A program made the position numbers and the translations under genes. From a bacterium (GTDB lineage: Bacteria; Armatimonadota; Chthonomonadetes; Chthonomonadales; Chthonomonadaceae), in NCBI GenBank assembly GCA_900299305.1, contig OMJJ01000331.1, positions 1-51,036 of the forward strand: 51,036 nt of DNA, written 5' to 3'. The notes under the pieces were generated by a model. It searched no databases. It was given only the letters and a program-made list of their open reading frames with translations, and was not told where the DNA came from. Shown here one piece after another: positions 3,527-29,037 of the stretch (its first letter is position 1; every line of letters begins with the position of its first letter).

Positions 3527-3556
3527 TTTGCGGGGTTGACTCCTGATACCTTCCAA

Positions 3557-4256: not shown

Positions 4257-4269
4257 GGAGTAGTAAGCA

Positions 4270-6957: not shown

Positions 6958-6965
6958 CCGTGTGG

Positions 6966-8069
6966 TTAGGCGACCTCTAGCACCCTCTTACCCAGCACCT
7001 CCATCTTGGGAACGATACCCAAGCCGGGAAGGGTACTTGCCGCCATACGTCCCTGCACCCGTTGGGGCGCACCGTCGGCAGTGCTTACGGTTACGTAACT
7101 ATTGAAGTCGGTGGTGGTAAAGAGGTACTCAGTGGGAGTGCTATGGGCGAGGTGGGCAATCGCGGCAGTGGTAATGTCTCCGCCCCAACTGTCCTCTATC
7201 GTCATGGCGATCCCCATAGAGACACACAGGTCACGAACTTGGCGCGTGCGCGTAATACCGCCTAGTTTCCCTATTTTCAGGTTGACCACATCCATCGCCA
7301 AGTCTGCTTTGGCGCGTAACAGCATATCCAAACTGTCCACATTTTCGTCCAGTACAAAGGGATGATTACAGTGCCGCCGCACGCTTAGGCACTCCTCATA
7401 AGTAAGGCAGGGCTGTTCGATATAGACATCCACATCACGAACCGCCCGAATAACGCGCATCGCTTCGTGAGGAAGCCAGCCCGTGTTTGCATCTGCGACC
7501 AGCCTATCTCCGGGTTGCAGTTGTGCCGCTACTGCATGAATACGCTCTATGTCCACATCGGGGTCGCCCCCTACCTTCAGTTGAAAGCGGCGATACCCTT
7601 CGGTACGGTAGCCCGCAACCTTACTCGCCATGACCTCTGGGTTCTCCTGAGAGATAGCGCGGTAGAGGTGTACATCCTCCCCATAACGCCCTCCCAAAAG
7701 GGTACTAATCGGTTGCCCCGTCACTTTTCCTAATATGTCCCAACACGCAATATCTATACCGGATTTAACGTAGGGGTGTCCTTTGAGAGCGGCATCCATC
7801 CGCTGATTCAGTTTGCCGATTTCTAAGGGGTTCCAGCCTAAGAGATGCGGGCTTAACTCCAGTAGCCCCGCCCGTACCCCCGCGGCATACGCCGGCAAGT
7901 AGAAGGGCCCCAATGGGCAGACCTCCCCATACCCTACTATCCCGCTATCGGTCTCTATGCCTACGATGGTGCTATCGAAGACGGAAACGGACTTGCCCCC
8001 AGACCATTTGTAAGTACCCTCGTGGAGCGGTAAGTCGACTTGGTGGGCGAAAATGCGGCTAATTTTCAT
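6966..8069 (-). CDS. Enolase-superfamily dehydratase/epimerase (mandelate racemase type), likely cis-3-hydroxyproline dehydratase-like
   Basis: A 367-residue TIM-barrel enzyme of the muconate-lactonising/mandelate racemase group. Metal ligands are Asp193 (VADANTGW), Glu218 (IEQP) and Asp241 (LDENV). Candidate general bases are Lys165 (FQLKVGG) and Lys265 (NLKIGKLGG), one on each face of the active site. The N-terminal cap ([13 protein letters not shown], then GYGEVCPLG) is like that of cis-3-hydroxy-L-proline dehydratases, which is my best guess; dipeptide epimerase is an alternative. It ends 8 bp from the convergent peptidase gene and is monocistronic, with no proline catabolism or transporter gene beside it. 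Confidence 0.85.
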
Positions 8070-8140
8070 ACGGTTTGCTTCTCCTTCTAAACCCGATTTC
8101 TTATAAGGGTTTTGAGATTAAGTAAGCCTTTAGTCAGCAG

Positions 8141-8232
8141 TGCATTCGCCTTGCCCCTTGCGAAGGGGAAAGGTTGGAAAGGGGTGGGTTTTAAACTCAC
8201 TACAGGCGACTACCTCACTCTATATTGCAATC
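8141..8232. repeat. Modular hairpin repeat
   Basis: This contains the decamer TGCATTCGCC (8141-8150) followed by a perfect hairpin CCCCTT-gcg-AAGGGG (8154-8168) and GGAAAGGGGTGGG. It shares these modules with the repeats at 133-142, 3839-3848, 22436-22569 and 40395-40404. It lies just upstream of the pdxT promoter and has no coding potential. Confidence 0.5.
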
Positions 8233-8272
8233 ATTGCCTACTTAAATACCCCTCTCATCTGTTTTCTTAGGG

Positions 8273-8278
8273 TATAAT
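8273..8278 (+). promoter_or_regulatory. -10 box of a probable leaderless pdxT transcript
   Basis: A consensus TATAAT ends six bases before the pdxT ATG at 8285. With the usual 7-base spacing, transcription would begin at or next to the A of the start codon. No purine-rich ribosome site lies in between (CTCCTT). No -35 consensus is evident at 17 bases. Confidence 0.6.
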
Positions 8279-8284
8279 CTCCTT

Positions 8285-8872
8285 ATGAATACCACAAAAA
8301 AGACGATAGGTCTACTCGCTTTGCAGGGTGATTTCGCCGCGCACAGGAAAGTTTTTGAGCGGCTTGGCTGGCAGACCGCCGAGGTGCGTACCAAGCAGGA
8401 ACTCGCGCAAGTAGATGCTCTGGTGATTCCCGGTGGAGAGAGCACCACTTTAGGGAAACTGTTGGCACGTATTGGCTTGGATACAGAGATACAAGAACGG
8501 GCAAAGCAAGGTATGCCGATGTTCGGGACGTGCGCGGGCATGATAATGCTGGCTTCGCGAGTAGAAGACCGTCCCGAACAGCCCACGCTTGGGTTGATGG
8601 ATATTACCGTAGCCCGTAACGCCTTTGGGCGGCAGGTAGAGAGTTTCGAGACGGAGATTCCTTTTCAGGAATCGGTGGTACAAGGTGTGTTTATCCGTGC
8701 GCCGTATGTGGTAGAGGTTACGGAGGGGGTGGAGGTTCTATCGAAGTTCCGCGATAAGGTGGTAGGAGTACGACAAGGAAACCTCTTTGCGATTGCGTTT
8801 CACCCAGAACTTACGGACGACACCCGTGTTCATAGCTACTTTGCACAGATGATATTAGAATCCAATGAGTAG
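8285..8872 (+). CDS. pdxT: Pyridoxal 5'-phosphate synthase glutaminase subunit PdxT
   Basis: PdxT hydrolyses glutamine and channels ammonia to PdxS to build the PLP ring. At 195 residues it matches family length. The class I glutaminase triad is complete: Cys83 in GTCAGMI, His173 and Glu175 in FHPELT. The oxyanion segment IPGGESTT is also present. PdxS, its obligate partner and often its neighbour, is absent from the window. The gene appears leaderless. It converges on the hydrolase gene with only three bases between stops. Confidence 0.96.
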   Translation: MNTTKKTIGLLALQGDFAAHRKVFERLGWQTAEVRTKQELAQVDALVIPGGESTTLGKLLARIGLDTEIQERAKQGMPMFGTCAGMIMLASRVEDRPEQPTLGLMDITVARNAFGRQVESFETEIPFQESVVQGVFIRAPYVVEVTEGVEVLSKFRDKVVGVRQGNLFAIAFHPELTDDTRVHSYFAQMILESNE

Positions 8873-8875
8873 CAA

Positions 8876-9607
8876 CTAACTCAGTTCGGAAAGCCATTTT
8901 AACAACACGCTTTTAGACTTGTCGGGGGCATCTTGGTGCGAAGCCTCTATCTGCATAACCTGCGTGTTTCTCCCCGCTAGGCTTGCCAACCTCTCCACTC
9001 TCTCCACCGAAAACAGAACATCTTGTTGCGCCGCTACAAACAGGGCAGGTAAGCCCCCTATCTCTTGCGCGGTAGGTAAGAGGCTACCCAGTTGGGCAGA
9101 GAGTTCTGCAACGGGTGCCCCCTGTACATAGGCGGCGCGTTGCGACTGCATAGTTCGCCCCACCACACTCTGAAAACCGATATGCGGTTCTACCCCCATA
9201 CAGAGGCAAGCAACTCCTGCTATCGGGGGAGATACAGGCGAGGCTACTTCTTGTATGGCGGTTCTGAGCACCGCCACCGCCCCCATCGAGTGCCCGACCA
9301 GTACAATGCGCTCGGCGGGTACGGTGTTACGATACCAAGCCAGTGCCGCTTGCAGGTTCTCTACCGTTTGGGTCATGTTGTGGAGTTCGCCGCCGGTTCC
9401 CCCAAGTTTGTGTCCTACAAAGTCGAAGGTTAGCCCCTCATACCCTTTGTTCGCCAGATACCCCGCCAATCCATCAAAAGTATATTTTCCCGCGGTAAAG
9501 CCGTGTGCGTAGAGTATGGCAGTGCTTTGTCTCCCGTTATCGGGCGCGTAGCGTAGTGCGGCTAACGTTGCGCAATTCGCAGGTATCTGATGGTTGTGTA
9601 GTTTCAT
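8876..9607 (-). CDS. Alpha/beta hydrolase
   Basis: A 243-residue cytoplasmic serine hydrolase. The nucleophile elbow is GHSMG, the oxyanion strand HGFTAGKYTFD, with candidate acid Asp in AAQQDVLFS and base His in EASHQDAPDKS. The layout is that of the small esterase/dienelactone-type hydrolases. It is the last gene of a probable operon with the recombinase (14-bp gap) and the KOW/SH3-like gene. Substrate is unknown. Confidence 0.85.
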   Translation of the reverse strand: MKLHNHQIPANCATLAALRYAPDNGRQSTAILYAHGFTAGKYTFDGLAGYLANKGYEGLTFDFVGHKLGGTGGELHNMTQTVENLQAALAWYRNTVPAERIVLVGHSMGAVAVLRTAIQEVASPVSPPIAGVACLCMGVEPHIGFQSVVGRTMQSQRAAYVQGAPVAELSAQLGSLLPTAQEIGGLPALFVAAQQDVLFSVERVERLASLAGRNTQVMQIEASHQDAPDKSKSVLLKWLSELS

Positions 9608-9621
9608 TTAGAAGGGGTAGC

Positions 9622-10623
9622 CTATTCGACATTCGCACGGGGGTGGGTCTTTTCATAGACGGCGATAAGGTGTTCGGGGGTGACATGGGTATAGATTTGC
9701 GTGGTGACGAGGTGGGCGTGCCCTAGCAGCTCTTGTACCACACGCACATCCGCGCCATGCTCTAGTAGGTGTGTCGCAAAGGAGTGACGTAGGGTGTGTG
9801 GGGTTGTTTTGAGACGTTCGGAGGCGATTTTGAAGTACTTGTCGAAGGTACGACGAATCCCTCTGTCGGAGAGGCGGGTTCCAAATCGGTTTAGGAAGAA
9901 GGCGTTATCAGGTCTGGTGGTGTTTTTGAGGGCGAATTCGGGACGCGCATAGTGCAGGTAGTTTCGCATGGCGAGTATCGCCGCTTTGCCTAAAAACGCG
10001 ATACGCTCTTTCCCTCCCTTTCCGTGCCGTATAAACACCTCCTCCCCGCTTAAATCAATGTCGTGAACATCCAGTTTGTGCGCCTCCCCTGCCCGAATAC
10101 CAGAGGCGTAGAGCAGTTCCATGAGGGCTTTATCGCGTAGACCTTCGGAGGTGGTGGTATCGGGGGCGTTTAGGAGGACTTCGATTTCCGACTCGCGTAG
10201 GAACTCCGGTAGTAGCCTCTCCTGCTTAATGGGTTGGATACCGATAGTGGGGTCAGTGGTAAGGTAGCCGTGCCGCATACACCACTTACTAAACGCCCGT
10301 ATTGCGGCGAGTTTTCGCGCAATAGAGGTGTGTTTGTAGTCTCCTTGATGCAGGTCGGAGAGAAAACTACGGACGTGGGTACGCTCAACTTGCTTTAGGC
10401 TGTCCTCGCCCAATGTAGGGTGAGACTGCACATAACTCAGAAACTGAACGAGGTCGGCACGATAGGCACGGAGGGTGTGGTTGGCGGAGTTTTTGCCGAG
10501 TTTGCGGAACTGCAAAAACGCCTCTAGTTTTTCATCTAGGAGCGGAGAGAGAGCGGGTTCAACAGGAAGACGCGGGTCTTCTGCTGTCTCGATATACTCT
10601 TTTACGGGCTTCATTTCGCTCAT
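9622..10623 (-). CDS. xerD: Tyrosine recombinase XerC/XerD
   Basis: A 333-residue site-specific recombinase with an N-terminal SAM-like DNA-binding domain (about 30-125) and a catalytic domain (about 145-325). Catalytic residues are all present: Arg177 (SGIRAGE), the Lys in GKGGKER (201-207), His276 and Arg279 (HTLRHSFATHLL), His302 (LLGHAHLVTTQIY) and Tyr311. Length and the absence of phage or integron neighbours favour a chromosomal dimer-resolution enzyme over an integrase; XerC and XerD cannot be told apart here. An N-terminal tail of about 25 residues precedes the usual start of the family. It lies 22 bp downstream of the KOW/SH3-like gene on the same strand. Confidence 0.92.
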   Translation of the reverse strand: MSEMKPVKEYIETAEDPRLPVEPALSPLLDEKLEAFLQFRKLGKNSANHTLRAYRADLVQFLSYVQSHPTLGEDSLKQVERTHVRSFLSDLHQGDYKHTSIARKLAAIRAFSKWCMRHGYLTTDPTIGIQPIKQERLLPEFLRESEIEVLLNAPDTTTSEGLRDKALMELLYASGIRAGEAHKLDVHDIDLSGEEVFIRHGKGGKERIAFLGKAAILAMRNYLHYARPEFALKNTTRPDNAFFLNRFGTRLSDRGIRRTFDKYFKIASERLKTTPHTLRHSFATHLLEHGADVRVVQELLGHAHLVTTQIYTHVTPEHLIAVYEKTHPRANVE

Positions 10624-14905: not shown

Positions 14906-17470
14906 ATGAACCCCAAAAGAATAACCGCTGTTTTGGCGGGAATCGGAGCACTTTGCATCGGGCTAGGAACTACCGCAGTCACCTACCGATGGCGGCATAC
15001 CCTACACCTTCACCCCGTTACTGGCAAGCCTATCGTGCTACCCGGTGCGGAGGGCGAGGGGCGGCTACTGCATAACGGTTGGCGTATTACACCGGCAGGA
15101 AGGCATATTCCCACCAACGATATGCTACTGGGCGGCGCGATAAGCCCCGATGGTAAGACCCTTGCGATTGCCAACTGCGGCTACAACTCTCACCGTGTTC
15201 ACCTGATAGATATTGCTACCGAGAAGGAGATAGCCCAGCTGGTTATACCTACCGCATGGAACGGTATCGCGTGGTCGCCGGATGGTAACGCGCTCTATGT
15301 GGGAAGCGGATTGGCGGTTAAGGCGAGAATCTTGAACCAAGTAGACGACGTGTATCTGTTTCGTAAGCAAGAGAGCGGTGAGTGGGTGCGAGAGAACGGC
15401 TTTAACCTGAAAGGCAATGACCGCAAAAATACGTGTATTGCAGGGCTTACTCTCTCGAAAGACGGCTCTACTCTCTATGTGCTAAACAACACCGATAACA
15501 ACCTCTATGTGCTAGATGCGAAGAGCGGCAACCAACTAACCAAAGTCGCGGTAGGAGATAGCCCGATAGTAGAACGCCTCTCCGCAGACGGCACGAGGCT
15601 TTACGTAGCGAACTGGGCAGATAACACCTACACCGTACTAGATGTGAGTACCCCCGCAACCCCCAAAGCGGTACAGACTATCCACACCGATAGCCACCCC
15701 AACGACCTCGCCCTCTCTACCGATAACCGCCTCTTTGTTTCGTGTGGTAGTGCCGACGTGGTGCAGGTGTTCGATACCCAAACCAACCAACTTATCGAGC
15801 AGATACGCACCCCTATCTCTCCCAAAGCCCCCTACGGCAGTACCCCCAACGCTCTTGCTCTCACAGGAGATAACAGGTCGCTTTATGTTGCGAACGCAGA
15901 TAACAACAACGTCTGTGTGGTGGATGTTGCAAATAAGCGCAAGAGCCGCGTTCGTGGATTTATTCCTACGGGCTGGTATCCGAGTGCGGTGCTTACCACT
16001 CCCGACTCTAAGCGGGTCATTATTGGAAGCGGTAAGGGAATGGGAACCGCTCCCAATAAGGTGATGGGCCGGAATGTAAAGGCTCAGGTGTTTCGATTTG
16101 AGCACCATGGGAAACAGTTATCGGGTTTTCTCTCTTTTGTAGACGCACCCAACGATACTTCACTTGCCGAGTATACACGCATGGTCATGGCAAATACGCC
16201 GTACCGCGACGAGCAACTAAAAACCGCAAAGAGCGACGAAAAGACCGCCATTCCTACTCGTGTTGGGGCGGCAAGCCCTATCAAGTACGTCCTCTATATC
16301 ATCAAAGAGAACCGTACCTACGACCAAGTTTTCTCCGACTTGCCGCAGGGGAACGGCGACAAAAACCTTCTGCTCTTCGGAAGAGAGGTAACGCCCAATC
16401 ACCACGCACTGGCAGAAGAGTTTGTTTTACTAGATAACCTCTACGCAAGTGGAGAGGTTTCGGCAGACGGTCATCCTTGGAGTACCTCTGCGATTGCTAC
16501 CGACTATACCCAACGCTCTTGGGTTCTAAACTACTCTGGCAAGGATGCACCTCCCTTTAAGGACTCTCTAGGCGACCCCAAAAGTGGCTACATCTGGGAT
16601 GCCTGTGCGAAAAAGGGACTCTCCTACCGCTCTTATGGTGAGAACGTCTACGCTACCTCTAGTGAGCAAGCACCGGAACAGAAAATGGGGGGAACTACGG
16701 GTCTGGTTGGGCATGGGAGTGCCGCTTATGTGGGAATTGGGCGTAAAGGTGGAGAGGACGGGATGCGTGACCCAGAAAAGGCGGATGTATTTATCTCGGA
16801 GTTCCAAGAGTTCGAGAAGAAGGGGACGATTCCGCGCTTTATGGTGATGTCTTTGGGCGAAGACCACACGCACGGCACAGCAACCAACGAACATACTCCC
16901 AAAGCCTGTGTCGCCTCTAACGACTATGCACTGGGTAAAATCGTGGACGCGATTTCGCACAGTAGCGTTTGGAAGGAGTTTGCGATATTTGTAGTAGAGG
17001 ACGACGCGCAGAACGGACCCGACCATGTAGATTCGCACCGTACCGTTGGGTTGGTGATTAGCCCCTATACCAAGCGCAAAGCGGTGGATAGCACCATGTA
17101 TAACACCACCTCCATGCTCAGAACGATGGAACTGATACTGGGGCTACCTCCCATGACGCAGTACGATGCCTCTGCTACTCCGCTCTTTGCGAGTTTTACC
17201 AACGTCGCCAATACCACCCCCTTCACCGCTCGTAGCCCACTGTACGACCTAAGCGAAATGAACAGAGCGACGGCGTATGGCGCGAAAGAGTCGAACAAGA
17301 TGGACTTTCGGGGCTATGACCGTGTGGACGAGGACACCCTAAACCGTATTTTGTGGCATAGTATTAAGGGGACACAGACTCCCATGCCTGCCCCTTCCCG
17401 TAGTGCGATGCTAACCCCTCAAGGGCGCGTTTCGCTGGTACATTTCCACGAACGCGATACCGACGACTGA
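14906..17470 (+). CDS. Beta-propeller (YncE-like) and phosphoesterase fusion protein
   Basis: An 854-residue protein with an N-terminal hydrophobic segment (residues 8-25), so exported or membrane-anchored. Residues about 70-400 form a seven-bladed YncE-type propeller of DG-x-x-LYV-x-N repeats. From about 455 the sequence is a phosphoesterase of the alkaline-phosphatase superfamily: YIIKENRTYDQVF (about 465-475), then SADGHPWS, a later GEDHTHG and EDDAQNGPDHVDSHR. The Asp/His clusters are metal-ligand candidates. Such fusions are known, but their substrate is not. AAGGA precedes the ATG. It starts a co-directional run with the YtxH protein (14-bp gap) and a sugar ABC importer. Confidence 0.9.
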   Translation: MNPKRITAVLAGIGALCIGLGTTAVTYRWRHTLHLHPVTGKPIVLPGAEGEGRLLHNGWRITPAGRHIPTNDMLLGGAISPDGKTLAIANCGYNSHRVHLIDIATEKEIAQLVIPTAWNGIAWSPDGNALYVGSGLAVKARILNQVDDVYLFRKQESGEWVRENGFNLKGNDRKNTCIAGLTLSKDGSTLYVLNNTDNNLYVLDAKSGNQLTKVAVGDSPIVERLSADGTRLYVANWADNTYTVLDVSTPATPKAVQTIHTDSHPNDLALSTDNRLFVSCGSADVVQVFDTQTNQLIEQIRTPISPKAPYGSTPNALALTGDNRSLYVANADNNNVCVVDVANKRKSRVRGFIPTGWYPSAVLTTPDSKRVIIGSGKGMGTAPNKVMGRNVKAQVFRFEHHGKQLSGFLSFVDAPNDTSLAEYTRMVMANTPYRDEQLKTAKSDEKTAIPTRVGAASPIKYVLYIIKENRTYDQVFSDLPQGNGDKNLLLFGREVTPNHHALAEEFVLLDNLYASGEVSADGHPWSTSAIATDYTQRSWVLNYSGKDAPPFKDSLGDPKSGYIWDACAKKGLSYRSYGENVYATSSEQAPEQKMGGTTGLVGHGSAAYVGIGRKGGEDGMRDPEKADVFISEFQEFEKKGTIPRFMVMSLGEDHTHGTATNEHTPKACVASNDYALGKIVDAISHSSVWKEFAIFVVEDDAQNGPDHVDSHRTVGLVISPYTKRKAVDSTMYNTTSMLRTMELILGLPPMTQYDASATPLFASFTNVANTTPFTARSPLYDLSEMNRATAYGAKESNKMDFRGYDRVDEDTLNRILWHSIKGTQTPMPAPSRSAMLTPQGRVSLVHFHERDTDD

Positions 17471-17484
17471 AAGGAGTTTGAGCC

Positions 17485-17814
17485 ATGAGTAGAGATTCCG
17501 AACGTGCGGCGAGTAACCTCGTCTGCTTTATGCTAGGCGCGGCGGTGGGAGCCGCCGTCGCCCTCCTCTATGCCCCTCAAACGGGAACAGAGACCCGCCG
17601 CCAACTGGGTGAGAAGGCACAGGACGCGAAAGAGAAGGCGGAAGCCGTTGCCTACTCGGCAAAAGAGAGGGCAGAAGCCGCCGCGCAAACCGCCAAAGAG
17701 AGGATTGCTGTTGTCTCGGAGAAGGTGCAGGAGTTGCGCCGCCCCGCCTCTAGTACCGGAGAGCCTGTTTTAGCGGTAGAGACAGAGGGTGGCGACGAAG
17801 ACTACGCGGTATAA
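17485..17814 (+). CDS. YtxH domain protein
   Basis: A 109-residue protein with one glycine/alanine-rich membrane segment (FMLGAAVGAAVALLYAPQTG, about 15-34), the hallmark of YtxH, followed by an amphipathic Lys/Glu/Ala helix that would form a coiled coil. Relatives are general-stress membrane proteins; the exact role is unknown. AAAGGAG precedes the start. It sits between the phosphoesterase and the ABC importer genes. Confidence 0.85.
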   Translation: MSRDSERAASNLVCFMLGAAVGAAVALLYAPQTGTETRRQLGEKAQDAKEKAEAVAYSAKERAEAAAQTAKERIAVVSEKVQELRRPASSTGEPVLAVETEGGDEDYAV

Positions 17815-17844
17815 CTGTGTTTGAATAGCGGAGTCAGGAAAGTC

Positions 17845-19353
17845 ATGGACGCAGAAGAGAGAGTAAAACCAATAACAAAGATGTTGGGAGGGGTGGTCGC
17901 CATAATGGTTGCCGCCTTCCTGTTCTCGCGTTCTGGTATGGCGCGAGAGGTACACACCTCGTTTGGAGCGAAGCAACCGCGTACTGTGCTACGGGTGTGG
18001 GACTGGTGGTCGCCCTCTACCGACGAGAAGTTTGGGTTCTATTTTGAGGCGGTAAAGCGGGAGTTCGAGCAGTTACACCCCGACGTAGAGCTGGTAATAC
18101 AGTACGTTCCGTTCTCGCAGTACGAGCAGAAGATGGCGACGGCGTTGGTGGGCAACAGCCCCCCCGATGTATTTCAGTCTTCGGTAGCGTGGGCAGAGGG
18201 CTTCTACGATAGAGGGATGCTATTGCCCCTAAACGGCTTCCTCGCTTCTCCTGAATCCAAAGCCTTGCTCCCCGAACAACGGCTTACCCAAGACCGCTAT
18301 CTCGAATCGGCATGGAAACACAACACCACTTCCGACGGCACAGTATTCGGGATACCACAGATTTTGGACGCGGACTGCCTTGCATGGAACCTCGATATGC
18401 TAAAAGAAGCCGCCCAAACCGACCCCGAAATCCGCAGTATGTTCGCCCAAAACCCCGACGGTAGCCCCAACTACTCCCATCTAAAAGCGGATGGAGTGAA
18501 GGACTGGGAGATGTTTCGGCGAGTGACAAAAAAACTGACGAAGCGAGACGCGCAAGGCAACGTCACTCAGGCGGGGTTTGTGCTACACGCGCACGGAAGC
18601 GGTTCGAGTACCTTTTTGTCGTGGTGGGCGGCGAACGGAACCAACCTTCAGAACGCAGAGGGAACCCACACCCTTTTCGATAGCCCCGAAGGGGTGGAAG
18701 CGGTGCGCTTTGTATTAGACCTCTACTGGAAGGACAATGTGAGTTTTCCTTTTCGCCGCCAACTGAGTGTGGACGAGGTATTTAATCAGGGACATTCGGC
18801 TTGTGTGGCTTCGGGAACGTGGGCGGGGAAGTATATTCGGCGCAACACAGAGAACAAAATACACTTCGACATGACCCCCTACCCGCCGGGCCCCCATGGT
18901 AACGGGCAGTCTACTATCGCTTGGGGGAATATGCTGGTTATCCCAAAACGCGCCCGTCAGGCAAAACTGGCATGGGAGTATATTCAGTTCATCTGCTCAA
19001 AATCGGGCAGTTTGCGCCTCCTCAAGTATTTGGGGCAGAATGCGCCCCGCAAAGACTTCTACGAGACCCCCGAATGGGGTGAGGAGTGCCGCCGCTATCC
19101 CGACCTCATCAACATCCCTGCCATCTGTGCAAGCGGTAAAAAGCGGCATCATACCCAGAGCCAAGCGGTAGACTACGCCTCCCAAGCCACCTTCGAGACC
19201 CTGCTACTGCACTACCCCGAAATTGAGCAAGGAAAGGGGGCATACCCCTCGGTAAAAGCAGGGGTAGAGAAGGCAGGGGAGGCAGTGAATAAGGTCTATG
19301 AGCGTTACAATAGGCAGGTAGCAGAGTGGAAGCAGAGGGAGGCAACCCGATGA
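17845..19353 (+). CDS. Sugar ABC transporter substrate-binding protein
   Basis: A 502-residue family-1 extracellular solute-binding protein. The ATG at 17845 is preferred over an in-frame TTG at 17821 because AGGA lies five bases upstream. A hydrophobic segment (about 15-29) is a signal peptide or anchor; no lipobox is seen. Typical features include LRVWDWWSPSTDEKF, FEQLHPDVELVIQYVPFSQYEQKM and NSPPDVFQ near the N-terminus and SGTWAGKYI later. It is longer than the usual 420-450. Its stop overlaps the permease start by four bases (ATGA), showing translational coupling. Confidence 0.93.
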   Translation: MDAEERVKPITKMLGGVVAIMVAAFLFSRSGMAREVHTSFGAKQPRTVLRVWDWWSPSTDEKFGFYFEAVKREFEQLHPDVELVIQYVPFSQYEQKMATALVGNSPPDVFQSSVAWAEGFYDRGMLLPLNGFLASPESKALLPEQRLTQDRYLESAWKHNTTSDGTVFGIPQILDADCLAWNLDMLKEAAQTDPEIRSMFAQNPDGSPNYSHLKADGVKDWEMFRRVTKKLTKRDAQGNVTQAGFVLHAHGSGSSTFLSWWAANGTNLQNAEGTHTLFDSPEGVEAVRFVLDLYWKDNVSFPFRRQLSVDEVFNQGHSACVASGTWAGKYIRRNTENKIHFDMTPYPPGPHGNGQSTIAWGNMLVIPKRARQAKLAWEYIQFICSKSGSLRLLKYLGQNAPRKDFYETPEWGEECRRYPDLINIPAICASGKKRHHTQSQAVDYASQATFETLLLHYPEIEQGKGAYPSVKAGVEKAGEAVNKVYERYNRQVAEWKQREATR

Positions 19354-20195
19354 AAGAACGTTCTCGTATAGAGTGGGCGGCTTACCTCTACATTGCGCCA
19401 GCGTTTCTGCTCACCCTACTGTTTAGCCTGTTTAGTATGGGAGTCAGTTTCTGGACGAGCCTTCATAACTGGGATGCGTTTGCGGGTAGCGGGGCGTTTG
19501 TTGGGTTTGCAAACTACAAGCGAGTGCTGTTTGGAGGAGATAGCGTCTTTTGGGTGGCTCTCCGAAACACTACTCTCTATGTGCTTATGGTGCTGATGGG
19601 GATGTTGTGTACCGCGCTCCCACTTGCCCTACTCTGCCGAAAAGCGAAGTATCTGCAAGGACTGTTTCGTACCCTCTACTTTTTGCCAAGCATTACGCCG
19701 GGAGTGGTGGTATCGCTGATATTCTACCAACTTTTTGGGCTATGGGGGCAACTGCTAGATAAGAGTACCACCGCCCTTTTCGCGATTGCGATGATGGGGG
19801 TCTGGAGCGGCATGGGCTACAATATGCTTCTCTTTCTTGCAGGGCTAAACGAGATACCTGCGGACTTTTATGAGGCGGCACGGATGGACGGCGCGAACTC
19901 TTTTAGTGAGTTCTGGCACATCACCATTCCCTTTTTGCGAAACACCCTCGTCTTTGTGATAGTGATGACGATTATCGGGGCGTATCAGGTGTTTACATCG
20001 GTGTATGTGATGACGGGCGGCGGACCGGAGCGGAGTACGCAGGTTCTGGCATTTGATATATTTATGAACGCCTTTAGCGTGGCGGGGCAGATGGGATATG
20101 CAAGTGCGGCGGCGTGGCTTCTGTTTTTGGTGATAGGAGTGTTTGTCTTTATTCAGATGCGCCTTATGAAAAGTCGGCGCATCTACGACGAGTAG
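19350..20195 (+). CDS. Sugar ABC transporter permease (MalF/UgpA type)
   Basis: A 281-residue inner-membrane permease with about six hydrophobic helices. The EAA loop, which contacts the ATPase, reads YEAARMDGANSFSEFWHITIPFL. ATG at 19350 overlaps the preceding stop and has GGAGG upstream; a GTG at 19326 in frame is less likely. It pairs with the next gene to form the channel of a carbohydrate importer. The matching ATPase is not in the window and is probably a shared MsmK/UgpC-type protein elsewhere. Confidence 0.94.
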   Translation: MKERSRIEWAAYLYIAPAFLLTLLFSLFSMGVSFWTSLHNWDAFAGSGAFVGFANYKRVLFGGDSVFWVALRNTTLYVLMVLMGMLCTALPLALLCRKAKYLQGLFRTLYFLPSITPGVVVSLIFYQLFGLWGQLLDKSTTALFAIAMMGVWSGMGYNMLLFLAGLNEIPADFYEAARMDGANSFSEFWHITIPFLRNTLVFVIVMTIIGAYQVFTSVYVMTGGGPERSTQVLAFDIFMNAFSVAGQMGYASAAAWLLFLVIGVFVFIQMRLMKSRRIYDE

Positions 20196-20203
20196 GTGAG
20201 AAG

Positions 20204-21115
20204 ATGGGGTTTTACAAACGAAACCGGCTAGGCACTATAACAGCGTTGTTGGTGATGTGCTTGGGAGCATGGGTGATGGCATTTCCCTACCTTTTTGCGA
20301 TAGGGAGCTCCTTCAAGTCGCGTTCCGAGTTCTCTACCGACAAGTTTTCGCTGATTCCGCCCCGCTATCAGCCCGCCAAACTGTGGAACCGCTACGTAGG
20401 CGGAAAACACGACCCCGAACACGAGGCGCAACTAAAGAACTGGTATCCCACTCGCAACTATGTAGAGGCAGTGGTGTATGGCGGCATAGACAGGTTTTTG
20501 TGCAACAGTTTTATCTACGCGCTTATCGTTACTTCGGTGAGTCTGTTTTTCAATATGCTGGCGGCGTATGCGTTTGCCCGCATGAAGTTTCCGGGACGGG
20601 AACTCCTGTTCAATATCCTGCTTGCTACCATGATGATTCCGAGCGTAGTTACCCTGATACCGCAGTTTTTGGTAATACAGAAAATCGGGCTGGTAGACCA
20701 CTGGCTTGGCGTGGTGCTACCGAGTTTCGCAGGTGCATTTGGTATCTTTTTGCTGAGGCAGTTCTTTCTAAATATCCCTAGCGAACTAGAGAACGCGGCA
20801 CGTTTGGACGGCTGTTCTCGGTGGGGGATTTTGTGGCACATTATCGCACCTCTCTCCAAACCTGCCCTGATAACGCTGGGGCTGTTTACGTTTATGGGGG
20901 CTTGGAACTCGTTTGAGTGGCCCCTTGTAGTGCTAAGTAACGAGAACTACTACCCGCTGACGGTGGGGCTTGCGCTGTTTCGTGACCAGAATACACAAGA
21001 CTGGCCCCGCATCTTGGCGGCAGGAGTGATGGGAAGCGCACCGCTGATAGCCCTCTTCTATTTGGCGCAAAAGTTTTTGGTGGGGGGTATCAGTTTGAGC
21101 GGCATGAAGACGTAG
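20204..21115 (+). CDS. Sugar ABC transporter permease (MalG/UgpE type)
   Basis: A 303-residue permease. The ATG at 20204 begins MGFYKRNRLG, has AGGTGAG upstream and lies eight bases after the previous stop; a longer open frame from 20114 overlaps the first permease and is rejected. Six membrane helices and the EAA motif ENAARLDGCSRWGILWHI are visible. A loop between helices 1 and 2 (about 45-95) is longer than usual and rich in charged residues, perhaps contacting the binding protein. The sugar carried cannot be read from the sequence. Confidence 0.94.
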   Translation: MGFYKRNRLGTITALLVMCLGAWVMAFPYLFAIGSSFKSRSEFSTDKFSLIPPRYQPAKLWNRYVGGKHDPEHEAQLKNWYPTRNYVEAVVYGGIDRFLCNSFIYALIVTSVSLFFNMLAAYAFARMKFPGRELLFNILLATMMIPSVVTLIPQFLVIQKIGLVDHWLGVVLPSFAGAFGIFLLRQFFLNIPSELENAARLDGCSRWGILWHIIAPLSKPALITLGLFTFMGAWNSFEWPLVVLSNENYYPLTVGLALFRDQNTQDWPRILAAGVMGSAPLIALFYLAQKFLVGGISLSGMKT

Positions 21116-21134
21116 AAGTGATGAATAGTATGCC

Positions 21135-21824
21135 ATGATAACGGATATTATGTTCGATTTTTTTGGGACACTAGTGCTCTACAAACAGGGTGCCTTTCAT
21201 ACAGCACCATATTTACGTACCCATGACTACCTTCTGAGGCATGGCTTTAATGTCTCTTATGAGCATTTCACGACTGCCTTTGAATCTGCCTCCCATGAGT
21301 TAGAGACAAAAGCGACGCTTACGGGGCAAGAGTATCACATGAACGAACTGGGTGCGTTATTCTTTCGTACTGCGTTTTCTGTAGATGCCCCCGAAACGCT
21401 GGTTGTACCGTTTGTAGCGGTGTTTTTAGAGGAGTGGAGCCGGGGGGTCGTGTATTTGGATTCTCTTGCCCCTTTCTTGGAAAAACTAGCGAAAACCTAC
21501 CGCCTTAGCGTACTTTCCAACACCAATTTCCCCCCTCTTATCCACAACCACCTTGTAGCAATGGGGGTAGCACATCACTTTTCGGTAGTGTTTACCTCTA
21601 TTGAGGTGGGAATAAGGAAGCCCTATCCTACCATTTTTCAGCACGCGCTAACTGAACTTGAGGTCAGTGCTGAGAACATTATCTATGTTGGGGATAGTTA
21701 TGTAGCCGACTATGAAGGAGCCACTATGGCAGGAATACGCTGTATTCTTATCGCCCCACAAGAACAGTATCCGAATGTTCCACATTGTGTCTCTTCTCTT
21801 TTTGAATTGGAGCAGTATCTGTAA
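21135..21824 (+). CDS. HAD-like hydrolase lacking the second catalytic Asp
   Basis: A 229-residue HAD fold protein of subfamily IA (helical cap inserted after motif I). Motif I is FDFFGTL: the nucleophile Asp8 is present, but the +2 position, Asp in phosphatases, is Phe10. Motif II is LSNTN, motif III the Lys of RKPYPTIF, and motif IV YVGDSYVADYEGA. Loss of the +2 Asp is seen in haloacid-dehalogenase types (often Tyr) and some non-phosphatase members, so a phosphatase role is doubtful. It follows the permease by 19 bases, last in the run, and may act on an imported or derived compound. Confidence 0.85.
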   Translation: MITDIMFDFFGTLVLYKQGAFHTAPYLRTHDYLLRHGFNVSYEHFTTAFESASHELETKATLTGQEYHMNELGALFFRTAFSVDAPETLVVPFVAVFLEEWSRGVVYLDSLAPFLEKLAKTYRLSVLSNTNFPPLIHNHLVAMGVAHHFSVVFTSIEVGIRKPYPTIFQHALTELEVSAENIIYVGDSYVADYEGATMAGIRCILIAPQEQYPNVPHCVSSLFELEQYL

Positions 21825-22622: not shown

Positions 22623-22823
22623 ATGGATATTCAGAAAATCGTTGCGTTGGGGCTTGTGGTAACAGCCGCGCTCTATTTGGGGCGGCGGTGGGTTCTCTCA
22701 TTACGAGCGTTTTGGAGCCGTAAAGGGGGATGTGAGGAGGGCTGTGGCAAGTGCGGCATGGCGCAGGTTGCGGAGGCACGAGGCAGGCGCGGACTCTCTA
22801 TTCCTCTCAAGCCCAAGCACTAA
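22623..22823 (+). CDS. Small single-pass membrane protein with Cys cluster
   Basis: A 66-residue protein: one membrane helix (IVALGLVVTAALYLG, about 5-19), an Arg/Lys stretch, then GCEEGCGKCG (C-x3-C-x2-C), and a basic tail. The shape resembles FeoB-associated cysteine-rich membrane proteins, but no feoA or feoB gene is near, so iron transport is only a possibility. The ribosome site is weak. Its stop overlaps the end of the convergent next gene by four bases. Confidence 0.6.
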   Translation: MDIQKIVALGLVVTAALYLGRRWVLSLRAFWSRKGGCEEGCGKCGMAQVAEARGRRGLSIPLKPKH

Positions 22824-23647
22824 GAGGCGTTTGCGATTAACTCTAAATCCTCTTGAAGCGCAAGAACGGGCATACCGGGCATATAGTCGTGTGTGGTAGG
22901 CTCTACCAGTTTGGAAAATGCCTCTATTACGCTCTGAATACGCTCTGCGCCCTCGTAGGCGTACTCTAGTATTTCAATAATGGGCGCGACCTCACTCACA
23001 CCACTCTCTAACCAGTAGTTAAGGTGCTTCAACGCGCCCTCTGTGTTCGCTTTGACGGCAAAGAGAGGATTGAACACCTTGTGTTTCAGGGTTCCTGTGG
23101 CTTGAAGCACGGTATCCATTTTCGCTAGTTTGATACTCTCCGCTTGTAGTGCCTGATTCTGTAGCATCTCCCCTTGCAGTTGCGCCGCCATCTCTACCAG
23201 AAGTTTGGTAGCGTCCTCCATGTCCTCTTCGTTATGTACTCTCTCAGCGTTCGTCTGATCTAGTTCCCGCTTTAGTTCCTGTATGCGCTCTAGGGTTGCT
23301 AGGTGCTGAAAGCCCCGCTCCACACACTTAACTAGTGCACAGATAGGGGACTGTAGCACAAAGTAGTCCTCTGCCTCTTCTATCTCCTCTTCATAAGTGC
23401 TAAGTAGAGCAATAAAGTAGGGAGTGGCAAGTGATTTACGAAGGGTATCTACGGTAGTAGGTCGCTGATGGTAGAAGGAGGCATCTATCACTACCACCCC
23501 GTAGCGTCCCGAAGCGAGTGCGAACTTCGCTTCATTCAGCGTAAGCACGGCAGTAACGCACCTGTTTTTCGCCTCTAAAGCGGTAACGAGTGCCTCTTGC
23601 GGGGCGGGGGTTATCAGTAGTACTCCTTGTGAGGAGAGATGGCTCAT
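22820..23647 (-). CDS. Receiver-like domain with coiled coil and H-box, no ATPase
   Basis: A 275-residue soluble protein. Residues 8-115 resemble a CheY-type receiver fold (VLLITPAP, VVVIDAS with Asp55, then a helix and FIALLST). A coiled coil follows (about 118-165). Residues 180-245 resemble a histidine-kinase dimerisation domain: LKHKVFNPLFAVKANTE (His189, with the NPL turn), then a second helix. There is no HATPase domain, so it cannot phosphorylate itself. It may be a phosphotransfer protein or a degenerate regulator; the acidic pocket of the receiver is incomplete. It has its own start, and no kinase lies beside it. Confidence 0.65.
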   Translation of the reverse strand: MSHLSSQGVLLITPAPQEALVTALEAKNRCVTAVLTLNEAKFALASGRYGVVVIDASFYHQRPTTVDTLRKSLATPYFIALLSTYEEEIEEAEDYFVLQSPICALVKCVERGFQHLATLERIQELKRELDQTNAERVHNEEDMEDATKLLVEMAAQLQGEMLQNQALQAESIKLAKMDTVLQATGTLKHKVFNPLFAVKANTEGALKHLNYWLESGVSEVAPIIEILEYAYEGAERIQSVIEAFSKLVEPTTHDYMPGMPVLALQEDLELIANAS

Positions 23648-23728: not shown

Positions 23729-26700
23729 TTAACTCGGACACACAAAGTAGAAGGGGCAACGAGGGCAAACTCTGTCATCGGGGTTTGGGTGGAAGTTACC
23801 GGCGCGTAGCTCTTGTAGGGCTATATCGTATCTCTCAATGCGCCTAATCTCGTACCGTGCTTTTTCGGGGACTTCTAACTCTGCTTTTGCGGAAGGATAG
23901 ATTAGGCTTACCTCAATTTTTTTGTCGGGGAACTTGAGTTGGGCGGCGCGGCGTAGCAAGGCGAGTTCGGGGGCGCGGGAGTCCTCTTCGTCGGGGCGGC
24001 TACGCTTCTGCTTCATTAGGCGGATGGTGTTTCCGCTTCTCCGCACATCCTCGCAGTACACCCGAATCGTGCCGTGTTCCAGTTCCGCCGTAAACTCTTG
24101 GGCATAGGTTTTGGCGTGGGGTTCGCTTAAAAACTGGTGTACTCCCGCCAAGTAGAGCGTTGCCTCTTCGCGGTAGGTGGGCAGTTGGGGGTGGGTTTCG
24201 AGTTGGCATTTGTCCTTCCAAAGTGCTTCCCAGCGTTCGGTAACGGTAGGGAAATCGGGCAAGTTCGTCTCTTGCTTCATCCACTGGGCTACTTCGGTTA
24301 GGCTGTCTTGGTAGGCGCGGTAGGGCGTTACTTCGTAGGAGGTGGGCAGTTGGATAACCCGCTGGTAGTAGTAGCGGCGTGGGCAGGACTGGTACTGCTC
24401 TAGGGCGCGTAACGAGAGTTCTGGTTTGGTATCGGGGAGCGGTAGGGGCGGTGCCTCTTGGGTTAGCGGGGTGATGCGTTGCCACTCGGTACGCTCTACG
24501 GTATGCCCCTGCAAAAGCGGGGCGATACTTTGCAGAAGCGGGGAAGGTTGGAGGGGTCTCCCATTTCTGGTTGTAGGGTATGTAAGATAGAGGTGGTCTT
24601 TTGCACGGGAGAGAGCCACAAAAAAGAGGCACTTGTCGCCGTCTTCGTCCTCGCTCATACTCTCGCCTAGCGCGTTTGTCATGGGGGGAAGCGTTGCCAT
24701 ACTGCCGCGCTTTTGCGGTGGAAACTGCCCTTGCACGAGGTTGGGAAGGTAGACAATGGGAAACTCCAACCCCTTCGAGGTGTGAATCGTCATAAGGCGT
24801 ACCCCGTCGAGTGCCTCCATATTTCCGCTAGAGTGCAGAGACCTCTCCTCTCCGCATTGCAGGATGTGACGCAGATAGCGGAGGAAGTCGGCGTAAGGAG
24901 TGTTGGAATCGGAGGGGAGTTTGCGCGTTACATTTCGAGCGAAATCGAGGAGTTGGTGGAGTGCAAACAGCCGCTTTTGCGCCGTAAAGTGGGTACTGCT
25001 ACAGAGGGGGCGAAGGTAACTACTGGTCTCGAAGAGGTAGCGAGTCCAGAACTGCCAAGCGTTCGGCTGAAAGAGTAGCCCCTCTATCTCTTCCCACAGT
25101 TTAGCGGCTCCACGCTGTCCCTGTTCCGAGAGTTCTCCTGTAGCGACTGCCCCTTCTAACGCAAATGGAAACGCCTGTTCGGACTTCTGTGCGAACCCGA
25201 TAACTTTCTGCACATCCTCCAGCGGCAGGGCGTACTCTGGGAACTGCGCCACACGTAGGAGTGCCGAGCCGTGCGGCTCCGATACAAACGCCAGCAGAGC
25301 CAACATATCTCTGATTTCAGGACGCTCTAGCAACCCGCCAGTGTGTAGAACGGGGATTTCGCGCTCCTCCAGAAACTGAGCAAAGTCGCTTGCTTGGCGG
25401 TTGGTACGGCAGAGTATTGCCTGTTCCCAATACCCCACCCCTTGCGATTTCCAGCACCGAATCTGCTCTACAAGGTGGTCGGCTTGGGCGGTTTCGTCCT
25501 CTGCTGTGGCAAGGGTAATGGCGGGTTCTGTTTTTGTACCGCGTTGTGCCTCCCAAGATACCTCTCCTTGCTCTTCTTCCTCCGACATCTGGGTCGCTAC
25601 ACCGCTAAACAGGTTTACAAGATGCTCTGTAGATCGGTAGTTTACATCGAGGCGAAGGCGTGTACCGCCCGGAAAGTCCGTCTCGAACTGCCGAATGTTG
25701 GCAGGGGAAGCCCCCCGAAACCGATAGATGGCTTGGCGTACATCGCCCACCGCCCAAAAGCCTTTGCCGTCTCCTGCCAACCGCCTTAGCAGTTGTGCGC
25801 TTGCCCTATTGATGTCTTGGTACTCGTCCGCGAGAATATGAGCGTACTGGCGTTGCCAACGCTCGCGTACATCGGGGCAGGTGTCTAGGAGTTCTACAGA
25901 GCGCATGATAAGGTCGCCGAAATCAAGAAAGCCCTCTTGCGCCAAAACCTGCTGATAGACGCGGTAGAACTCCGCGATTTCCAAAGACTTTCGGGCGGCA
26001 CTCTCTGCCTCTGGGGTAGCAGCACTTGCGAGTTGCCGTTGCGCCGAGAGGAGGTAGTCACTAGGGGTCTGTAGTTCGTCCTTTGCACGGGAGATGCACC
26101 TTAGAATATCGGGGAAGGGAAAGGTGGGCTGATGCAGGTAGCGGTACTCACGGAGGGAGAGTTTGTCTAGGTTGCGCTCTAGGAGGAGTATCACATCAGC
26201 GATTTCGATAAGTTGGGGGTGGAGGGGTAGCCCAATACGTCTCCCCTCTTTCTTGAGCAGCTCCATACCAAAAGAGTGAAAGGTTCCCATCCAGACCTGT
26301 TCGGCGGGTAGCCCTACCGCGCTTCGGAGGCGTACCCGCATCTCCTCTGCCGCCTTGTTTGAGAAGGTGAGGGCGAGAATTTTTTGAGGCGGTACTCCCT
26401 TTTCGAGAAGCAGATGATGTAGGCGTGAGGTGAGAGTGCGTGTTTTGCCGGTGCCGGGTCCTGCCTCTACCAGTACGGGGCAGAGGTTACTTTCGGCGGC
26501 GCGTTGCTGACTAGGGTCGAGGGGGAACTTCGCCGATTTGGTCTCGATGCCAGAGAGGAGTGCCTCTTTTTCGTTTGCGGGGGGAACCAGTAGCGCGTAC
26601 TGTAGTTGTAGGCTTACGATAGAGAGGGGTAGCCCCGACTGACGGGCTATCTCTTTTGCACTCCAGCCCTGTTGCGTTACATTTCGTAACAGGGAGGTAG

Positions 26701-27136
26701 GGAGCAGGAGTTCGTAGGCGAACAGGTTTGCTTCGCGTTCTCGGCGTTCGGTGGGGTTGTAGCCTATGGCACTTCTTCCTGCTTCGGGAGAGACGGTTGC
26801 TTCTAGGGTCTCTTCGGTGGTACAGAGGTCGGAGGAGAGGTCGGGGTGTAGCCAGTAGTGCGCGAACTCGTGTGCCAAGATAAGGCGTTTGCGCTCTGGG
26901 GTGAGGGCGGCGGAGTACCATATCATCTCTTTTTCGCGGTCTAGTACGGCGTGCGCCCCCGCCAAGAGACTGTTGGTAGGGCTAACGGGAACGCAGGTCA
27001 TCCCCGTCTCGTTCTCTGCCGCCTCTAGGAGTGCATCTGCGGGAGGGATACCTGAGCCCTCTAGCAGGTGGAGACTAGAGGCGAGTTGTGTGAAGATGTG
27101 TTGGGTGCGAAGGCGCAGTACCGACCCTTCCGACAT
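23729..27136 (-). CDS. ImmA/IrrE peptidase - UvrD helicase - degenerate RecB-type nuclease fusion
   Basis: One uninterrupted 1135-residue frame. Residues 1-190: M78-family zinc peptidase with HEFAH (89-93) and EREANLFAYELLLP (133-146), as in ImmA/IrrE, which cleave repressors. Residues about 205-880: SF1A helicase with AGPGTGKT (225-232), TFSNKAAEEM, GTFHSFG, DEYQD (437-441), GDVRQAIYRFRGA, VNYRST, TIHTSKGLEF and VALSRAKDHLYLTY. Residues about 905-1135: nuclease-like domain with Cys918 and Cys1124, Cys1127, Cys1133, the one-plus-three pattern of AddB/RecB-family iron-sulfur clusters. The G-x-x-D and D-Y-K nuclease motifs are not recognisable (GTIRVYCED, then IRLMKQKRS), so cleavage may be lost. 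Monocistronic, with TATAAT upstream. Role inferred: DNA repair, damage signalling or defence. Confidence 0.88.
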   Translation of the reverse strand: MSEGSVLRLRTQHIFTQLASSLHLLEGSGIPPADALLEAAENETGMTCVPVSPTNSLLAGAHAVLDREKEMIWYSAALTPERKRLILAHEFAHYWLHPDLSSDLCTTEETLEATVSPEAGRSAIGYNPTERREREANLFAYELLLPTSLLRNVTQQGWSAKEIARQSGLPLSIVSLQLQYALLVPPANEKEALLSGIETKSAKFPLDPSQQRAAESNLCPVLVEAGPGTGKTRTLTSRLHHLLLEKGVPPQKILALTFSNKAAEEMRVRLRSAVGLPAEQVWMGTFHSFGMELLKKEGRRIGLPLHPQLIEIADVILLLERNLDKLSLREYRYLHQPTFPFPDILRCISRAKDELQTPSDYLLSAQRQLASAATPEAESAARKSLEIAEFYRVYQQVLAQEGFLDFGDLIMRSVELLDTCPDVRERWQRQYAHILADEYQDINRASAQLLRRLAGDGKGFWAVGDVRQAIYRFRGASPANIRQFETDFPGGTRLRLDVNYRSTEHLVNLFSGVATQMSEEEEQGEVSWEAQRGTKTEPAITLATAEDETAQADHLVEQIRCWKSQGVGYWEQAILCRTNRQASDFAQFLEEREIPVLHTGGLLERPEIRDMLALLAFVSEPHGSALLRVAQFPEYALPLEDVQKVIGFAQKSEQAFPFALEGAVATGELSEQGQRGAAKLWEEIEGLLFQPNAWQFWTRYLFETSSYLRPLCSSTHFTAQKRLFALHQLLDFARNVTRKLPSDSNTPYADFLRYLRHILQCGEERSLHSSGNMEALDGVRLMTIHTSKGLEFPIVYLPNLVQGQFPPQKRGSMATLPPMTNALGESMSEDEDGDKCLFFVALSRAKDHLYLTYPTTRNGRPLQPSPLLQSIAPLLQGHTVERTEWQRITPLTQEAPPLPLPDTKPELSLRALEQYQSCPRRYYYQRVIQLPTSYEVTPYRAYQDSLTEVAQWMKQETNLPDFPTVTERWEALWKDKCQLETHPQLPTYREEATLYLAGVHQFLSEPHAKTYAQEFTAELEHGTIRVYCEDVRRSGNTIRLMKQKRSRPDEEDSRAPELALLRRAAQLKFPDKKIEVSLIYPSAKAELEVPEKARYEIRRIERYDIALQELRAGNFHPNPDDRVCPRCPFYFVCPS

Positions 27137-27176: not shown

Positions 27177-27182
27177 ATTATA
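27177..27182 (-). promoter_or_regulatory. -10 box of the IrrE-UvrD fusion gene
   Basis: On the minus strand a consensus TATAAT lies about 41 bases upstream of the ATG at 27136, leaving a leader that holds an AGGGG ribosome site. No clear -35 is visible. No obvious IrrE/DdrO-type palindrome is seen nearby. Confidence 0.5.
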
Positions 27183-28333: not shown

Positions 28334-28738
28334 TTAGTTCTGTTTTTTTGCTACGCAGTCTATCTCTACCTTAATCCCTAGCGTCAAGCCTGACTGTACG
28401 GTGGTGCGCGTTGGCAGAGGGCGGTGGTCGCCAAAGTAGGCGAGATATGCCTGATTGTAGCGATCAAAGTCGTTGATATCGGCAAGGTGAACGGTACACT
28501 TCACCACATCCGAGAGGGTACAGCCCCCTGCGTTTAGAATCTTCTCCACGTTCTCTAGGGTGGTACGGGTCTCTTCCTCTATCGTGCCACGAATCACGGC
28601 TCCCGTTTTTAGGTCGAGAGGTCCTTGTCCACTTACATAGACCCACCCGTCTATCTCTAGTCCTGCGGAGTATGCCCCTGTATCTACCTCTTTGTCGGGA
28701 TGCTTAATCTCTTTTTTGCTCACCAGTTGCCTCCTCAC
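28334..28738 (-). CDS. RidA/YjgF family protein
   Basis: A 134-residue Rid protein with GQGPLD, NAGGCTLSDVVKCTVHLADI, the Arg of LPTRTTVQSGL and Glu in KVEIDCVA. The pattern fits the imine-hydrolysing pocket. Its start overlaps the end of the Rieske gene by four bases, so the two are translationally coupled. It is distinct from the Rid protein at 14394-14786 and may belong to another subfamily. Confidence 0.92.
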   Translation of the reverse strand: MRRQLVSKKEIKHPDKEVDTGAYSAGLEIDGWVYVSGQGPLDLKTGAVIRGTIEEETRTTLENVEKILNAGGCTLSDVVKCTVHLADINDFDRYNQAYLAYFGDHRPLPTRTTVQSGLTLGIKVEIDCVAKKQN

Positions 28739-29037
28739 ACGTCGATAAAGACGCTTCCCTCTTCTACCTTACAGGCATGGGTCGCTACACACAGGTTTGA
28801 GGTGTAGAGTACCTGCCCTGTTTTTACGTTTACCTGCCAAGCGTGCCAAGGGCAAATAACGGTGTCGTCTTCGAGTTCTCCCTCACCCAGAGGTCCATCT
28901 CGGTGGGGGCACTCGTTGTCGATACAGAAGAACTCTCCTCCGACATGAAAGAGGGCGTAGTCGCGCCCTTTTACGGTAACGGTAGTCCCCGTACCCAGTG
29001 CGACCTCACTGGTCTCTGCCACTTTTACAAAAGCCAT
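28735..29037 (-). CDS. Rieske [2Fe-2S] ferredoxin (NirD/BphF type)
   Basis: A 100-residue soluble Rieske protein. The cluster ligands are Cys43 and His45 (NECPHRDG) and Cys62 and His65 (ICPWHAW). It lacks a signal or membrane anchor, so it acts in the cytoplasm as an electron carrier for an oxygenase or reductase not seen nearby. Translational overlap with the RidA gene is notable. It lies 18 bases after the hydrolase gene. Confidence 0.93.
   Translation of the reverse strand: MAFVKVAETSEVALGTGTTVTVKGRDYALFHVGGEFFCIDNECPHRDGPLGEGELEDDTVICPWHAWQVNVKTGQVLYTSNLCVATHACKVEEGSVFIDV

Follow-up and report, generated by a model that had tools for sequence, protein, structure and literature searches.

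The 51,036-nucleotide stretch analysed here (the window; contig OMJJ01000331.1 of assembly GCA_900299305.1, from a member of the Chthonomonadaceae in the phylum Armatimonadota) carries a gene, referred to below as gene C, whose product joins a predicted M78-family metalloprotease, a UvrD-type helicase and an iron–sulfur (FeS)-type pseudo-nuclease domain on one chain. Two further genes, encoding a sigma-70-like protein (A) and a protein with a Cro/cI-type helix-turn-helix (HTH; B), lie directly upstream of gene C in most of the Armatimonadota loci examined, and the presence of B follows the integrity of the peptidase. We judge the chances to be about even that gene C specifies a DNA-damage switch of the IrrE/DdrO or CapP/CapH kind, in which a protease built into a helicase cuts B to control A. 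Switches that pair a protease with an HTH repressor are known; on the best reading, what is novel is the building of the protease into a helicase, together with the sigma-like third member.

The product of gene C

Gene C is a single open reading frame and all of its Pfam domains lie on one chain, as the original prediction, made from the DNA alone, had claimed. Its features are listed below with their coordinates in the window; residue numbers are those of the 1135-residue product.

23729–27136, minus strand: gene C, M78 peptidase/UvrD helicase/FeS pseudo-nuclease fusion, 1135 residues, stop codon included in the coordinates (open reading frame and Pfam)
26612–26950, minus strand: M78 (IrrE/ImmA/CapP-like) peptidase domain, residues 63–175 (Pfam Peptidase_M78, PF06114, 64.0 bits, curated cut-off 22; profile matches to CapP 7t5t and IrrE 3dte)
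26858–26872, minus strand: HEFAH zinc-binding motif, residues 89–93 (invariant in the 27-member alignment)
26738–26740, minus strand: E133 of EREAN, candidate third zinc ligand (motif reading and alignment)
26528–26557, minus strand: low-confidence linker between peptidase and helicase, residues 194–203 (AlphaFold2 predicted local distance difference test score, pLDDT, below 50)
25670–26521, minus strand: UvrD/Rep helicase N-terminal domain, residues 206–489, Walker A and DEYQD intact (Pfam UvrD-helicase, 229 bits, above the curated cut-off; alignment)
24578–25654, minus strand: UvrD helicase C-terminal domain, residues 495–853 (Pfam UvrD_C, 129 bits, above the curated cut-off; alignment)
23735–24418, minus strand: PD-(D/E)XK-like domain without the (D/E)xK signature, residues 907–1134 (Pfam PDDEXK_1, PF12705, 34 bits, cut-off 22; motif alignment)
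24383–24385, minus strand: Cys918, first of four FeS-type cysteines (invariant)
23738–23767, minus strand: Cys1124, Cys1127 and Cys1133 (invariant)
27177–27182, minus strand: TATAAT hexamer 46 bases ahead of the start, likely −10 box of a promoter belonging to gene C itself (the relative G040 has the identical hexamer)

The zinc peptidase that had been read as intact proves to be so: the EREAN motif begins at residue 133, and H89, E90, H93 and E133 are invariant in an alignment of 27 relatives. With the Pfam domain and an HExxH motif followed by a downstream glutamate ligand, the gene C product is by its sequence a member of the M78 family and a predicted protease. The best profile matches of this part are to CapP (7t5t, 3e-9) and IrrE (3dte, 1.1e-7). 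Pfam finds no C-terminal GAF-like domain of the IrrE type, the UvrD domains coming after the peptidase instead.

The motor has the complete superfamily 1A (SF1A) motif set, again as predicted, and its key columns are invariant in the same 27 relatives (Walker A G226–T232, DExQD 437–441, Y500–R501, T783, H785, KGL 788–790, V840 and R844). It is not PcrA itself, because the PcrA profile scores it at 356.6 bits, far under the 911-bit equivalog cut-off; a separate and ordinary PcrA-like gene of about 770 codons is found elsewhere in the same genome (G000:C268). A scan of the genome contigs with the lone gene C protein returned only PcrA-like matches, its patterns having fallen in variable stretches.

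Of the FeS nuclease-like domain that had been proposed, the PDDEXK_1 match and the four cysteines (C918, C1124, C1127 and C1133, all invariant among the 27) stand, and the nuclease does not. The (D/E)xK signature is absent, the expected strand reading IRLMKQK, and motif alignment across the fusion family finds no conserved acid-x-Lys on that strand, and an active nuclease was rejected for that reason. Because the signature is lost while the cysteines are kept, the domain is more likely to be a DNA-binding or structural module than a nuclease. An AlphaFold2 model of the whole product has a mean pLDDT of 86 and a predicted template modelling score of 0.86, with weak segments at 101–128 and 194–203; Foldseek matches its motor to UvrD/PcrA and the model to AdnB over 757 columns, with a TM-score of 0.72 of the target.

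The fusion was followed through a survey of 291 genomes of the phylum, numbered G000 (that of the window) onwards. About 40 relatives, from many families, keep the fusion layout. Those of the same genus have the identical layout in a single frame at 75, 75 and 55% identity, and other relatives fall to about 30%. Since the same-frame layout is conserved in relatives, the fusion is not an artefact of assembly, and the frameshift or misassembly that might have created it can be set aside. Nor do homologues generally lack the peptidase domain, the other finding that would have told against the prediction; nearly all relatives have it, and in a few it is dead. One relative (locus L066, G019:C71, 7224–10533) has a short repetitive insert at the peptidase–helicase junction and its domains in separate overlapping frames; this is a fusion that has split naturally, or else a frameshift. 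No paper describing an M78–UvrD architecture was found in open-access text.

The partner genes A and B

Clustering of neighbouring genes, plasmids included, placed A at 31 loci (a few of these being unrelated sigma genes) and B at 28. In most loci A, B and C are closely spaced and run in the same direction. Gene A is sigma-70-like: 20 of 24 members match sigma region 4, and the Abditibacteriota copy matches region 2. The search for a DdrO-like repressor that had been proposed for such genomes has a candidate answer in B, a protein of about 170–260 residues whose members match Cro/cI-type HTH proteins and for which there is no curated Pfam family. The B model has a five-helix HTH at 117–178, then an extended segment and a C-terminal helix pair; the linker carries a [Y/F][R/K][A/S] motif in 29 of 32 members, followed by a conserved Pro196 and Phe204. 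Among the best PDB matches of this HTH, all of them weak, are CapH (7t5u) and DdrO (6jq1 and 6rnx). The likeness of B to CapH and DdrO corresponds to that of the M78 part of gene C to the proteases CapP and IrrE, of which these two are the substrates.

The three genes are not always together. The upstream neighbour of gene C is not B in the window, in G040 or in G041, and the G039 contig begins inside gene C. The genome of the window has an adjacent A–B pair on another contig, G000:C259 (A at 8694–9425 and B at 9382–10056 of locus L104), and the pair is likewise apart from C in G040. The same separation is seen in G053, G046, G008 and G009. Because the pair persists after separation from C in several lineages, it is argued to be functional rather than hitch-hiking.

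Two-way decay of the fusion

For the comparison that follows, fusions with an intact-type peptidase were recognized by an N-terminal profile (E ≤ 4e-42), and HExxH was read directly in the aligned rows. Such fusions occur in 39 genomes, 36 of which have B; those without it are G039 (93% complete, in 710 contigs), G041 (64%) and G016 (85%). Over all 291 genomes B is found in 40, namely the same 36 and G011–G014, in which A and B adjoin an M78 protein whose helicase has decayed, its DExx being replaced. No genome without any M78 fusion-type protein has B.

The converse is seen where the peptidase is dead. The motif reads HHFAH in G024 and G025, HADAH in G022 and HAIGH in G003; none of these genomes has A or B, and only background sigma factors match A there. 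G021 has two copies, one dead (HAEAH), which stands alone without B, and one intact, with A and B upstream. Fisher's test for the presence of B with intact as against dead peptidases gives p = 2e-4, a value made optimistic by shared ancestry. In a tree made by a quick method and without G022, some of the dead copies belong to the f9 clade and others to a mobile-type clade with G003, indicating at least two independent losses. Decay of the helicase, with A, B and the peptidase kept, is found in G011–G014 and in the second copy of G020. The separate decay of the two halves sets A, B and the peptidase apart as a well-supported functional unit, with the motor as a second one. The A–B operons with an intact M78 and a decayed helicase (L113–L116 in G011–G014, and L117 at 6178–8577) would be convenient natural minimal systems.

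This separability is also what an alternative explanation would expect, in which A, B and the peptidase are their own regulator and the helicase/pseudo-nuclease is a fused effector in defence or repair; cleavage of B would then raise the amount of helicase, with no sensing by the helicase. Copies that have lost the helicase and kept A, B and the M78 domain accord with it, as do those (G003, G021 copy 1, G022, G024 and G025) that have a dead peptidase and keep the helicase, and the close, unidirectional spacing of A, B and C in most loci would suit a self-regulating operon. There is a parallel in CapH and CapP, which likewise regulate adjacent immune operons (PMC13373217). However, the fusion has survived deep divergence (to 26% identity) in about 40 lineages, which suggests a mechanical link, and in the window's genus gene C, apart from A–B, has a probable TATAAT promoter to itself. 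We regard autoregulation of this sort as rather unlikely.

Mobile copies and ubiquitin-like neighbours

A tblastn search found 77 plasmid records in which at least 80% of the gene C protein is covered by one place. The nine loci examined outside the phylum, from nine strains, all have the A–B–C arrangement; they are plasmid or chromosomal and come from Klebsiella, Acinetobacter, Leptolyngbya, two Rhizobium, Pseudohalocynthiibacter, Pseudomonas, Abditibacteriota and E. coli, the last being an insertion near fimH. Two virus-classified contigs carry the fusion, both with B directly upstream. The B profile was built without the two viral contigs and the E. coli, P. koreensis and R. etli loci.

Genes for ubiquitin-like conjugation lie near the mobile copies in at least three designs. 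Multi_ubiq, DUF6791–ThiF and DUF6527 are beside the copies in Klebsiella, Acinetobacter, Leptolyngbya, R. etli and E. coli; DUF7665, Prok-JAB and ThiF are beside that of Pseudohalocynthiibacter (the JAB and ThiF matches being weak); and JAB–ThiF, Prok-E2_E and Multi_ubiq are beside that of Abditibacteriota. A–B–C also occurs without such genes, and none adjoin gene C in the window. A published survey counts CapW or CapH and CapP as regulators in 219 of 544 Bub operons (PMC13373217); A–B–C would be a further controller of this kind.

Two loci deserve separate mention. In the chromosome of E. coli STEC383 (L110, 4400070–4404259) an IS1 element occupies the position expected for A, B and the 5′ half of C, and what remains of the island is the helicase tail with the Multi_ubiq, E1 and DUF6527 genes. 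On the Klebsiella plasmid CP120875 (L078) an FRG-domain gene and a set of Tn7-like transposition genes (TnsD among them), at 2907–4271 and 15800–21201, flank the A–B–C/ubiquitin-like operon, which suggests that it is transported as Tn7-like cargo.

A second alternative is a self-contained defence against phages or plasmids, in which gene C attacks foreign DNA and A and B control its expression. The copies on plasmids, on viral contigs and in the insertion near fimH speak for it. The best PADLOC matches of the helicase part are the DRT-associated helicase and GajB of Gabija, but these concern the motor alone and reflect merely the shared UvrD fold, beyond which PADLOC gave no specific match to the gene C product. 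Against it, the domain has no nuclease signature, inheritance of the gene within the phylum mostly tracks the family tree, and the window copy sits amid housekeeping genes. Such a role is improbable. Of the earlier suggestions, an anti-phage role is hinted at merely by the plasmid and island copies beside ubiquitin-like conjugation genes, and no defence island surrounds the window copy, whose neighbours are metabolic and include an aldo-keto reductase, a Rieske protein and a molybdate transporter.

A third alternative is a machine for the repair of DNA–protein crosslinks, in which the helicase meets a DNA-bound protein and the tethered metalloprotease digests it. SPRTN acts in this way in animals, in company with FANCJ, and its ubiquitin link would have a parallel in the neighbouring ubiquitin-like genes. 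Such a machine would fit a chain that carries both an HExxH metalloprotease and an SF1 motor having FeS-type cysteines, and the repeated neighbourhood of ubiquitin-like, E1, E2 and JAB genes, but it is very improbable given that the matched M78 members with solved structures (IrrE and CapP) are repressor proteases, that an intact active site goes with the presence of one HTH protein in particular and that decay of the helicase has left the peptidase in place.

Other neighbours in the window

A 275-residue protein without a Pfam family is encoded after gene C (22820–23647, minus strand) and is found only in the window, G040 and G039; in this genus the two genes may share a transcript. Upstream of C, genes for a Rieske ferredoxin (28735–29037) and a Rid-family protein (28334–28738), both on the minus strand, form a tight run with the aldo-keto reductase gene, with no link to C seen. 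Near the edge of the window is a gene (1409–3556, minus strand) for an FHIPEP (FlhA-like) export gate protein, a component of flagellar or type III-type export.

A possible mechanism

In the proposed scheme, the gene C product would be the sensor-protease of a three-protein DNA-damage switch that B holds off, A being the transcription factor. The UvrD motor, with its FeS-stapled pseudo-nuclease domain, would engage damaged or foreign DNA and unwind it, and either single-stranded DNA (ssDNA) or a change in the shape of the motor would activate the tethered M78 domain. This would cut B in the exposed segment between the HTH and the C-terminal helix, where [Y/F][R/K][A/S] is the candidate site; the cutting would free A, or a promoter, and so turn the regulon on. 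In mobile copies the output would include the adjoining ubiquitin-like conjugation genes. The arrangement of domains, the intact active sites, the operon, the occurrence of B alongside an intact peptidase and the independent decay of the halves are observed; that B is cut, at which site, with what part for ssDNA, in which regulatory direction and for which regulon is what we infer.

Both PprI and CapP are proteases that ssDNA activates, with DdrO and CapH as their respective substrates (PMC10904395, PMC13373217). PprI needs Arg85, Arg207 and Arg267; its cut in DdrO falls in a loop of the C-terminal domain, and a model shows Arg118 there touching the ssDNA (PMC10904395). The window sequence 'PERKRLILAHEFAH' parallels 'PERQRFTLAHEISH' of IrrE, and the position of PprI Arg85, an ssDNA contact, is kept as R82 (PMC10904395). 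That DNA engagement is coupled to proteolytic signalling, the general idea of the original prediction, gains support from a DdrO/CapH-like partner that follows peptidase integrity. On a tentative view, possible but less likely than not, UvrD translocation would be mechanically linked on one chain to the destruction of a Cro/cI-type regulator, releasing a sigma-like factor.

Several observations weigh against a switch in which the gene C product cuts B. A–B and C lie on different contigs in the window's genus, so that the partner is not adjacent to the protease gene there, and a promoter motif shared by C and A was sought in that genus without a convincing candidate. The dead peptidases come from few lineages, and G022 is only 69% complete. 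A and B vanish together, which leaves A as a possible target in place of B. The match of B to CapH and DdrO is weak (PDB profile E of 0.008 for CapH; Foldseek E of 0.01–0.1) and of a kind common to many Cro/cI proteins. The other two ssDNA-contact arginines of PprI lie in the GAF-like domain, absent from the fusion. Finally, the helicase-decayed copies indicate that the A–B–peptidase unit can persist without an active motor.

The proposed switch may be set beside four known systems. It shares with IrrE/PprI–DdrO, of the Deinococcus radiation response, an M78 protease with HExxH...E, a Cro/cI-type HTH partner and the sequence before HExxH, including the arginine position (PMC10904395), but gene C has a UvrD helicase and FeS pseudo-nuclease in place of the GAF-like domain of IrrE, a sigma-like gene joins the operon, and B has an extra N-terminal helical region. 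CapP–CapH, a controller of associated pathways (CBASS and Bub), provides the best solved match of the M78 part and one of the best of B, and this pair too is encoded directly upstream of ubiquitin-like operons (PMC13373217); CapP stands alone, however, whereas gene C has protease, motor and FeS domain on one chain, and there is a sigma-like third protein. PcrA/UvrD/Rep and AdnB/AddB have the same SF1A motor motifs and, C-terminally, a PD-(D/E)XK fold with four AddB-type cysteines; gene C differs in the missing (D/E)xK and the N-terminal M78 domain. With the Bub/Bil operons the likeness lies in the Multi_ubiq, E1 (ThiF), E2 and JAB genes that adjoin A–B–C in mobile copies, and is lacking in the window and in other A–B–C loci without such genes. 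A–B–C is not a replacement for the SOS response, a LexA-type gene being present in the window's genome.

Implications

The proteases of the IrrE/DdrO and CapP/CapH systems depend on other enzymes to make the ssDNA that they must find. Here an enzyme capable of making it is on the protease's own chain and, with the partner genes identified, the switch could be rebuilt from three proteins. If the proposal is true, it explains proteins that databases label merely as 'UvrD-helicase domain-containing protein', and a coupled helicase–protease would be a further bacterial DNA-damage response beside LexA/RecA and the stand-alone proteases of the IrrE/CapP type, new in a phylum that has had little study and that also has LexA. 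Mobile elements would then have recruited a helicase-driven switch to control ubiquitin-like conjugation operons, and A–B–C would be a likely controller of those borne on plasmids, including operons of Klebsiella, Acinetobacter and E. coli.

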